From: an uncultured Fibrobacter sp.
GTDB taxonomy: Bacteria > Fibrobacterota > Fibrobacteria > Fibrobacterales > Fibrobacteraceae
DNA: 64,000 bases
Direction of reading: 5' to 3'
Assembly: GCA_946408125.1 (NCBI GenBank)
Contig: CAMJQW010000004.1
Coordinates: 1 to 64,000, forward strand
How positions within the stretch are numbered: position 1 is the stretch's first letter; the number at the start of each line of letters is the position of its first letter. Below are positions 8,013 through 45,397 of this stretch, piece by piece. The notes below the pieces were generated by a model. It was not told the origin of the DNA. It was given only the letters and a program-made list of their open reading frames with translations, and searched no databases. Made by a program: the position numbers and the translations under genes.

Positions 8013-8058
8013 GTCATCCTCGCTCACTGGAATGTCATCCTCGCGAAGGCGAGGATCT
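8013..8058. repeat. intergenic palindromic repeat element
   Basis: GTCATCCTCGCtcactggaat + GTCATCCTCGCgaagGCGAGGATCT: a half unit followed by a full palindrome, same layout as the hrpB insertions. Confidence 0.7.
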
Positions 8059-42781: not shown

Positions 42782-45397
42782 TTAGGGCTCGACGCTCTCG
42801 GGCCACGGGTGCTTGGGATAGCGCCCGCGCAGTTCCTTGCGCACCTCGGCGTAGGTGTTCTTCCAGAATCCCGTCAGGTCCCAAGTCTTCTGGATGGTGC
42901 GGAAATTCGGCGCCAAAATGTCGTAGCGGACTTTCAGCTTGCCGTCAGCAATCTTGTGCTCGCCGCGCAACTGCATGAAGTCTTCGATGCGGGCGGAAAT
43001 TTCCACGAGTACGCCTTCGATACTTTGTACGGATTTTCCGTCATCGCTTGTGGCGACTTCCTGGTAGCTGTAGCGGGCGCGCTTGCCGTTCGGGAGCATA
43101 TAATGGTCGGGGAAAGTCTTGTTTAGCCAGGCGAGCATGGACTTGCCGAAGTAATCTTCTACGATGTTCCTGTAACGGCTTTCGTCGATGTCGCGCAGCA
43201 GGAACTTCCCATCGGCGAATTCGTCGAAGATGATTTCCATGTCCTCGTCGTTCATTTCGGGGAGCCCGTATTCCGGATAGAGCTTGGCGGCGAGGCGCAT
43301 CTTGGTCAGGAGGGTCTGCACGGATTCGGTAAGATAGCGACCCGACCAGTTTTCCTTCTCGATTTTTTCTTTCCACGCATCGACGGTGAGCTTCTTCAGT
43401 TCGGCAAGCACCTTCGGCGACGCTTCCTGCGTGGGGATTTCCTTGCGCGAGAGCTCGGTGACTTCGACGCCGATGAATCGTTCCTGGCCGCTGCGCCACA
43501 GGAGTTCGTATCGCGCTTCCGCATTGCCGGTGTCGAGCATTTCCTTGTCGATGGCGGCATACAGGTTCACCTTCAGTTCCGACTTGTTTCCGCCTCCGGT
43601 GCGTAGCATCGAAAGGGCCAAGATGGCATATGGCGGTTCCGCGGTTTGCAATCGGATGATGCTTTGGTTCGGGAGCTTGTATGCGTTGCCGTTCGGCGTG
43701 GCGAGCCTGTCGGGATATGCCTTGAGGAGGCTCTGCGCAACGAGATGCGAGGTCGTCATTCCGGCCTCCGACTTTTGCGTCATTCCGGCCTCCGAGCCGG
43801 AATCTGGAATGCTTCTCGCGCTTATCTGGTCGCGGTACTCCCGCAGTTGCCGGAACGTGAAGCTCACTTCGCGCGGCACGTTTACGGCCTTGTCGAGCGT
43901 GTCTTTCGCAAGTGTCAGGATGTCTTGCGGGAACTTGGATTTCTGTAATGTTTCGGTACCGGAGTGAATCCACGCGAGCGCTGCGAGGAGCAGGTCGGGG
44001 AGGTCCTGCGGGCCGCTTGCGGAGGCGAGAAGCAGCGCGAGCGGGATGCTCGATATGGGCGTGCGGATTGCCTTGAGCCCGAGTTCCGTGATGGTGCCGT
44101 CCTTGAGCATGCCGAAACTTTCGAGCAGTTTCGTGGCGGCCTGTGCGCACGCTTCCGGAATGGCCGTCGGCAGTTGCAACTCCGTCAATCCGGCCTCTGA
44201 CTTTTGCGTCATTCCGGCCTCCGAGCCGGAATCTAGATGGCGGGTCGGAGCCCGCCATGACGGTGGCAGAGAACTGCTCTCCAGCGCCGCCTTCTGCAGC
44301 AGCAGTTCCGAGGGCTCTATCTGCAGTACCTCGGGCACGATCCCCCTGGGCATCCGCTTTTCGGATTCTTCGCTCCAGAGGCGGATGGCGCAGCCGTTCT
44401 GCGTACGTCCGCTACGGCCGCTGCGCTGGATGGCGTTCTGCATAGAGATGGGCATGGTGCGCAGCACGTTCACTTTCTCGCTGTCGTCGTAGAGGCTCAC
44501 GCGCTCGATTCCGCTGTCCACGACGCCTGTGACGTTCGGGACCGTGATGGAGGTTTCCGCGATGTTTGTCGTGAAGATGACGCGCGGGCGTTCCGTGACT
44601 TCGAAGATGCGGTCCTGCGTTTCGCGGTCCTGCCCTCCGTAGAGTTCCAGGAATTCGGCGCAGTTTGTACCGAGCGCTTCGGCGGCGGCGCTGTGGCAGC
44701 GGGCGATTTCGGCCTTGCCCGGCAAGAATACGAGAGTCGTTTGCCAGATGTTGTTGCGGTAGAGCGTCTTGAGCGCCCGCACCACTTCGGCGTCAAGGCC
44801 CACGCCCGAAACGAGCGAGTTGCCCGTGGACGGCGTCTGGTTCAAGATCTGCACGGGGTACAGCGGGTGCCCGAGGCTTAAGCACTTGACGCCGAGAACC
44901 GCTTCGAGTTCGTCGCGGTTCAGTGCCGCCGACATCACTGCAATGCGTGGCGCAGCCATCTCCGGCGCGTGCGGAAAACTCCTATTAAGATACGCGAACA
45001 GCAAATCCATGTCGGCCTTGCGCTCGTGGTATTCGTCGAATACGACCCAGTCGGCATCCATCTTGCCGTGCAGGAGTTCCTGCAGAAAGTTTCCGTATGT
45101 CTGGAACAGGATGCGCGTGTCGGCGCTCTTGCAGCTGTCTTGCCGGAACTGGTAGCCGACGGTCTTGCCGCAAGGCTCGCCGTGCAGCTTCGCCGAAAAC
45201 TGCGCAAGGGACAGGGCCGCGATACGACGCGGTTGCAGGACGACGACGCGACCCTTGCAATGCTTGCTTAAAAAGTAGGGGATGAATAGCGACTTGCCCG
45301 AACCCGTGGGAGCTTCGATAAGCAGGTTGCGCGACGCTTCGAGTGCCGCTTCCAGCTTGTCTTCTTCTTCCGCGAGGGCGAGGTCGTTGTAATGCAA
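42782..45397 (-). CDS. hrpB: ATP-dependent helicase HrpB, with two in-frame repeat-derived insertions
   Basis: APTGSGKSLFIP, VVFDEYHERKADMDLL, TTNIAETSITVPNVTGVVDSG, QRSGRSGRTQNGCAIRLW; HrpB-type C-terminus (GRYPKHPWPESV). Confidence 0.93.
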   Translation of the reverse strand: MHYNDLALAEEEDKLEAALEASRNLLIEAPTGSGKSLFIPYFLSKHCKGRVVVLQPRRIAALSLAQFSAKLHGEPCGKTVGYQFRQDSCKSADTRILFQTYGNFLQELLHGKMDADWVVFDEYHERKADMDLLFAYLNRSFPHAPEMAAPRIAVMSAALNRDELEAVLGVKCLSLGHPLYPVQILNQTPSTGNSLVSGVGLDAEVVRALKTLYRNNIWQTTLVFLPGKAEIARCHSAAAEALGTNCAEFLELYGGQDRETQDRIFEVTERPRVIFTTNIAETSITVPNVTGVVDSGIERVSLYDDSEKVNVLRTMPISMQNAIQRSGRSGRTQNGCAIRLWSEESEKRMPRGIVPEVLQIEPSELLLQKAALESSSLPPSWRAPTRHLDSGSEAGMTQKSEAGLTELQLPTAIPEACAQAATKLLESFGMLKDGTITELGLKAIRTPISSIPLALLLASASGPQDLPDLLLAALAWIHSGTETLQKSKFPQDILTLAKDTLDKAVNVPREVSFTFRQLREYRDQISARSIPDSGSEAGMTQKSEAGMTTSHLVAQSLLKAYPDRLATPNGNAYKLPNQSIIRLQTAEPPYAILALSMLRTGGGNKSELKVNLYAAIDKEMLDTGNAEARYELLWRSGQERFIGVEVTELSRKEIPTQEASPKVLAELKKLTVDAWKEKIEKENWSGRYLTESVQTLLTKMRLAAKLYPEYGLPEMNDEDMEIIFDEFADGKFLLRDIDESRYRNIVEDYFGKSMLAWLNKTFPDHYMLPNGKRARYSYQEVATSDDGKSVQSIEGVLVEISARIEDFMQLRGEHKIADGKLKVRYDILAPNFRTIQKTWDLTGFWKNTYAEVRKELRGRYPKHPWPESVEP
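43755..43805. repeat. palindromic repeat element, copy A, inside the hrpB coding sequence
   Basis: GTCATTCCGGCCTCCGACTTTTGCGTCATTCCGGCCTCCGAGCCGGAATCT; 49/51 identical to copy B; encodes DSGSEAGMTQKSEAGMT. Confidence 0.85.
44184..44263. repeat. palindromic repeat element, copy B plus an extra hairpin, inside the hrpB coding sequence
   Basis: GTCAATCCGGCCTCTGACTTTTGCGTCATTCCGGCCTCCGAGCCGGAATCT + AGATGGCGGGtcggagCCCGCCATGACGG; encodes SWRAPTRHLDSGSEAGMTQKSEAGLT. Confidence 0.85.

Follow-up and report, generated by a model that had tools for sequence, protein, structure and literature searches.

Palindromic repeats of an intergenic type predicted to lie in frame in linkers of HrpB and other conserved enzymes of Fibrobacter

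Protein-coding palindromes are best known from the intracellular genera Rickettsia and Wolbachia, and elsewhere they have been listed gene by gene. Rickettsia palindromic elements (RPEs) are dispersed palindromes that are translated in frame, and one RPE-bearing enzyme has been reported to be active (PMC2229807, PMC3733652). Reviews of Ogata et al. 2000 give their length as 105-146 bp (PMC2229807, PMC3733652), and two of them, RPE-4 and RPE-6, are CGTC-type repeats (PMC3733652). Wolbachia palindromic elements (WPEs) are protein-coding palindromic repeats of a second genus, as cited in other work. CGTC-tagged REPs were described by Di Nocera et al. 2013 (PMC3733652), who gave five phyla for them, as small asymmetric hairpins with an unpaired (C/T)GTC tag at one end, a stem of 8-9 bp starting A-T, T-A, a loop of 4-5 nt and a CCA tail. 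These REPs are mostly intergenic and in some cases intragenic, frequently occur as paired units, and have no transposase of their own. The same study noted exceptional loop lengths among CGTC REPs and found intragenic CGTC and GTAG repeats, of which many were in genes for DNA replication and repair; the targets included RNA helicases and tRNA synthetases (PMC3733652). GTAG REPs and REPINs with RAYT are likewise short dispersed hairpins, some of which lie in genes. We found no earlier report of such repeats in Fibrobacterota in the literature searched, which consisted mostly of journals readable without subscription.

The locus that we compared with these systems lies in a 64,000-nt stretch of DNA (hereafter the window) from an uncultured Fibrobacter sp. 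(source genome G000: 2.49 Mb, 98 contigs, 81% complete). The genus assignment agrees with a named Fibrobacter MAG (L194), which a translated search showed to be ~95% identical to the corresponding locus of G082, another genome of the genus. A minus-strand frame of 871 codons at 42782-45397 is open throughout, and its predicted product contains a DEAH helicase core and an HrpB_C Pfam domain (E = 1.7e-26, above the cut-off). E. coli HrpB structures were the best PDB matches to this protein; the NCBIfam HrpB model TIGR01970 reached 4.7e-100 yet stayed below its curated cut-off, and we regard the NCBIfam HrpB matches as weaker support. On this homology, we assign the frame to the HrpB helicase. 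The gene apparently starts with TTG (45395-45397), where many relatives have ATG.

A first-pass annotation of the window had described two 51-bp palindromic elements inside this frame, and our analysis recovered them as described: a repeat finder placed the pair 429 nt apart, and they differ at 2 positions (49/51 identical). Each element consists of a lone half unit followed by a full CGTC-type palindrome 24 nt downstream on the plus strand, an arrangement that recurs at other loci. In copy A, the lone 5' half unit GTCATTCCGGCCTCCGA (43755-43771) precedes a palindrome at 43779-43805 that reads DSGSEAGMT on the gene strand; in copy B, the half unit GTCAATCCGGCCTCTGA (44184-44200) precedes a palindrome at 44208-44234. 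The 27-nt palindrome GTCATTCCGGCCTCCGAGCCGGAATCT matches both sites exactly, with 0 matches expected from 100 shuffles. The additional hairpin that had been ascribed to copy B is a mirrored CGTC-type hairpin, GTCATGGCGGGCTCCGACCCGCCATCT, on the minus strand (44235-44261), which meets copy B tail to tail (0 expected from 100 shuffles, searched with any bases in the stem and with GTCAT, the CTCCGA loop and ATCT fixed). The residues that had been assigned to the elements also stood, with their order clarified: along the gene, the first insert is copy B (residues ~379-405), directly past helicase domain 2, and copy A follows at residues ~531-548. Elsewhere in the window, a half-plus-full element with a different stem (GTCATCCTCGC, spacer, GTCATCCTCGCGAAGGCGAGGATCTT) at 8013-8058 on the plus strand was classed outside genes and is apparently intergenic.

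As had been suspected, the element is a dispersed repeat. Its core 27-mer occurs 12 times in the source genome (at most 3 mismatches; 0 for the reversed pattern) and was present in 54/61 genus genomes at up to 36 copies each, copy counts that depend on assembly completeness. In a class-wide sample, the element was found in 52/61 genus members vs 2/40 other genomes. When the stem was kept and the loop was allowed to be 4-8 nt, the pattern matched many phyla, in which most loops are of 4 nt (GAAA, GAAG, GCAG) and the tail is CCAG, as in the CGTC REPs already published; this tail was found in 83 elements of the genome-contig loci set. The Fibrobacter form, in units of 27-51 bp, has the 6-nt loop CTCCGA in 88 of 121 elements and a CT tail in most copies. 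Across these 121 elements, the base preceding GTC was T in 59% and C in 40%, and the dominant stems were ATTCCGGC/GCCGGAAT, ATTCCCGC/GCGGGAAT and ATCCCGGC/GCCGGGAT. Hairpin stability was slightly above that of shuffled sequences (z -1.4 to -3.05).

The Fibrobacter element thus shares with CGTC REPs the tag, the stem, the small asymmetric hairpin, the mostly intergenic location with frequent pairing, and, as judged from Y1 transposases, the lack of an own transposase. It differs from them in its mostly 6-nt loop and its CT tail, and its phylum is outside the five given for CGTC REPs. Given these mismatches of loop and tail, and the exceptional loops in the published set, we treat the element as a variant of the CGTC type that is related to the known REP superfamily and outside its four published families. 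Fibrobacter further differs in that several linkers of one gene are filled in parallel by several families, and in having nested loop-in-loop composites. The proposed analogy to RPEs proved to be a close one, as both are dispersed palindromes that lie in frame within conserved proteins (in Fibrobacter, as read from open frames and orthologues) and as RPE-4 and RPE-6 are themselves of the CGTC type. The 27-51 bp units are short in comparison to RPEs at their reviewed length, belong to another phylum and have another sequence, and in Fibrobacter the same linkers are used repeatedly across 35 genomes. By this analogy, the Fibrobacter element would work like an RPE without being one.

We aligned HrpB from the 35 genomes of the genus in which the hrpB frame is open over its full length and found three hypervariable linkers, in which all frames are open and the repeat families differ by species. 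Linker 1 (residues ~140-150, 44948-44980, minus strand), in the first helicase domain, has no element in the window and holds other repeat families in relatives. Linker 2 (residues ~374-406, 44180-44278, minus strand), past helicase domain 2, and linker 3 (residues ~526-549, 43751-43822, minus strand) are hypervariable both in the alignment of 35 orthologues and in the DNA. The window element's peptide SGSEAGMTQ is present in HrpB of G000, G012 and G002. EIPACAGMT and GRSPVKPGMT, also in HrpB linkers, correspond to other stems of the same type, NVIASEAKQS and CHASSEARND are apparently one repeat read from opposite strands, and further linker peptides include SVILSEARQGEVEGS, GSAGSPTLT, PISRPTDSFQGD and VSRSDQAQAGRGGESEAMPEV.

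The expectation that orthologues would lack the insert residues was borne out. In the alignment, neither insert peptide was found in HrpB of outgroup genera, and within the genus the inserts are cleanly absent from several orthologues (G035, G011, G026 and others), whose linker 2 is short. As the inserts of G000 are common to G012 and in part to G002, they are old rather than fresh transpositions; no target-site duplication was definable. The sharing of insert sites also bears on whether the inserts arose as artefacts of assembly or binning, the source genome being a draft of 98 contigs at 81% completeness. We consider this extremely improbable, as G012 and G002 were assembled separately and similar open-frame inserts occur in many genomes.

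Linker DNA matched other Fibrobacter loci in 39/91 cases by blastn, vs 1/91 length-matched hrpB control segments, in a database enriched for the 27-mer family (35/87 without the four linkers that belong to the search family). This recurrence at other loci, together with the dispersal of the 27-mer to 12 places, contradicts for the window elements an explanation free of mobile elements, in which linkers simply grow as low-complexity DNA slips during replication. Some linkers do consist of runs such as DERRETRDERRE (GAGACGA repeats), and half-unit duplications resemble tandem growth. Slippage may account for a minority of linkers, while as a general explanation of the inserts it is highly improbable.

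The first-pass annotation was correct about the two copies in hrpB and too narrow in scope, as the phenomenon extends to three HrpB linkers, to topoisomerase III and to a GluQ-type tRNA synthetase, and involves several repeat families. Topoisomerase III (Pfam Topoisom_bac) has open frames of ~877-1183 residues, part of this range being an extra zinc-type repeat rather than inserts, and its hypervariable linkers use the same peptide vocabulary as those of HrpB. The second topoisomerase of the same genomes is steady in length (~818-878 residues). The GluQ-type synthetase (tRNA-synt_1c) has one insert linker, between YQGKC and PHNLR, which holds the window element in G000 and G012 and other repeats or nothing in other genomes. 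Single inserts were found in a 1008-residue protein (L011) and in frames that by eye only resemble HemD, LysE and FeoB. As read from these open frames, palindromes of an intergenic type have entered flexible linkers of at least three conserved enzymes, HrpB among them, without loss of the reading frame.

Intragenic copies are the smaller part of the family. Of 120 distinct element clusters, a codon-usage model placed 13 (~11%) within genes and in frame; 100 were intergenic or unresolved and 7 contained a stop, in a sample gathered with the 27-mer and enriched for few genomes. Within the source genome, 4/12 copies were intragenic, and a 400-kb sample from two other genomes yielded one more in-frame case among ~10 elements. 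The unit is open in 5/6 reading frames. At ~11 separate intragenic sites, counted by eye, the frame encoding DSGSEAGMT was used 8 times, that encoding VIPASEPES 3 times and the three arginine-rich frames 0 times, a count made post hoc on sites picked in part by the 27-mer search.

Pairs of near-identical regions show how the linkers change. In HrpB linker 2, G030 has a precise insert of 51 nt, in frame, that the otherwise near-identical region of G013 lacks, and in the GluQ gene of G022, in comparison to the otherwise near-identical G016, the apical loop of one element has been replaced by another element (+24 nt). Where G000 has the mirrored hrpB hairpin in linker 2, its sister G012 has a nested composite. 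G027 has almost the same composite at a different locus (L335), which suggests that composites spread or are exchanged from site to site. A relaxed scan detected 7 distinct nested composites and 0 in a reversed-sequence control, and a strict scan that demanded a perfect 7-bp inner stem detected one case only. The inner end is truncated in a similar way in several nested elements, pointing to a common origin or a specific mechanism. It is possible, though in our view unlikely, that Fibrobacter has a hairpin- or single-strand-directed system that puts new palindromes into old apical loops and a few set protein linkers; if this were true, HrpB, topoisomerase III and GluQ-RS would carry genus-wide, continually renewed hypervariable linkers derived from mobile DNA. 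The outer stem was kept in the nested elements L366 (G022 GluQ), L016 (G012 hrpB), L127, L133, L335, L105 and L002.

Half units are a further part of this variation. Across Fibrobacter loci, ~20 of 217 elements have a lone 5' arm 17-24 nt upstream and only 3 have it downstream; of the 25 upstream cases listed, three are outside this pattern (periods 14, 31 and 41) and some of the rest are imperfect. In the coding copies L003, L016, L017, L022, L079 and L344, the distance to the upstream half unit is exactly 24 nt and so divisible by three, whereas in intergenic copies it varies from 17 to 24 nt (small sample).

A search for a transposase that could mobilize the element gave no Y1 gene in G000 (12 element copies), nor in G014, G068 and G074, which are nearly complete and carry 21-36 copies each. 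Y1 transposase genes are present in 20/61 genus genomes, and 11 of 12 Y1 loci had no such element within ~1.5 kb. As no Y1 gene was found in these element-rich genomes and the Y1 loci mostly have no element nearby, Y1/RAYT was rejected as the mobilizer. For Y1 transposases, these data agree with the published lack of transposase association of CGTC repeats (PMC3733652). The REP-like size and hairpin, along with the Y1 genes in the genus, would otherwise fit a GTAG-type REP or REPIN moved by a RAYT tyrosine transposase; given the (C/T)GTC tag in place of GTAG and the distribution of Y1 genes, we consider this origin very unlikely, and no RAYT linked to the Fibrobacter element was found.

We propose, as the probable reading of the sequence data, that these are non-autonomous REP-type elements tolerated in permissive linkers in the manner of RPEs and turned over by exchange and nesting. 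A copy of a mostly intergenic CGTC-type REP would enter hrpB in frame and be translated within HrpB. Persistence of the 51-bp units would be due to their position, in linkers with room for extra residues, and to their frame, which is free of stops and reads as an acidic, hydrophilic peptide. There they would be neutral, and insertions elsewhere in genes would presumably be purged. An occupied linker would then keep changing by exchange with dispersed copies, by nesting in old loops and by short tandem growth. A means of movement is presumed; the search for Y1 transposases yielded none that explains the elements.

The elements had been called domesticated, and of this claim in-frame insertion stood, whereas tolerance in permissive linkers accounts for the data without a gained function; insertion and tolerance are well supported. 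Under functional domestication, the linkers would be kept as flexible acidic spacers or as hairpins in the hrpB mRNA, and repeat capture would be favored as a means of diversifying helicase, topoisomerase and synthetase behavior. Three genes are filled repeatedly, each in the same linkers, which is consistent with such a role, as are the retention of inserts in sister species and the somewhat greater hairpin stability. However, neither peptide sequence nor length is conserved, several species are insert-free in a given linker, and unrelated peptides of different families occupy the same linker, all of which neutrality predicts. We therefore judge functional domestication to be unlikely and favor tolerance of REP-type elements.

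The data suggest that selfish-type DNA has been turned into protein sequence in Fibrobacterota too, in dozens of species and with different families per linker. We find most interesting that, throughout the genus, many repeat families renew the same linkers of three genes. Fibrobacter lives in gut and rumen, and many of its species have been sequenced; its filled and empty sites, repeated independent hits of the same linker and frame choice make it testable within one gene whether such inserts are passengers or new protein parts. Database peptides such as SEAGMT, VIPASEPES and NVIASEAKQS should be read as translated repeats and not as conserved motifs.

Other repeat families of the genus were also seen in hrpB linkers. 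Those of G013, G030 and G006 contain GAGACGA-type tandem runs (DERRETRDERRE) and a 51-nt element around GGGGCTTTGCCCC, which belong to such families. Linker 1 of G020, G022, G029, G032 and G033 holds a longer repeat (VSRSDQAQAGRGGESEAMPEV...RAERPR), which is in tandem in G022 and in G032 is flanked by repeated GAGCCGAACGGCC, a possible target duplication or repeat end.
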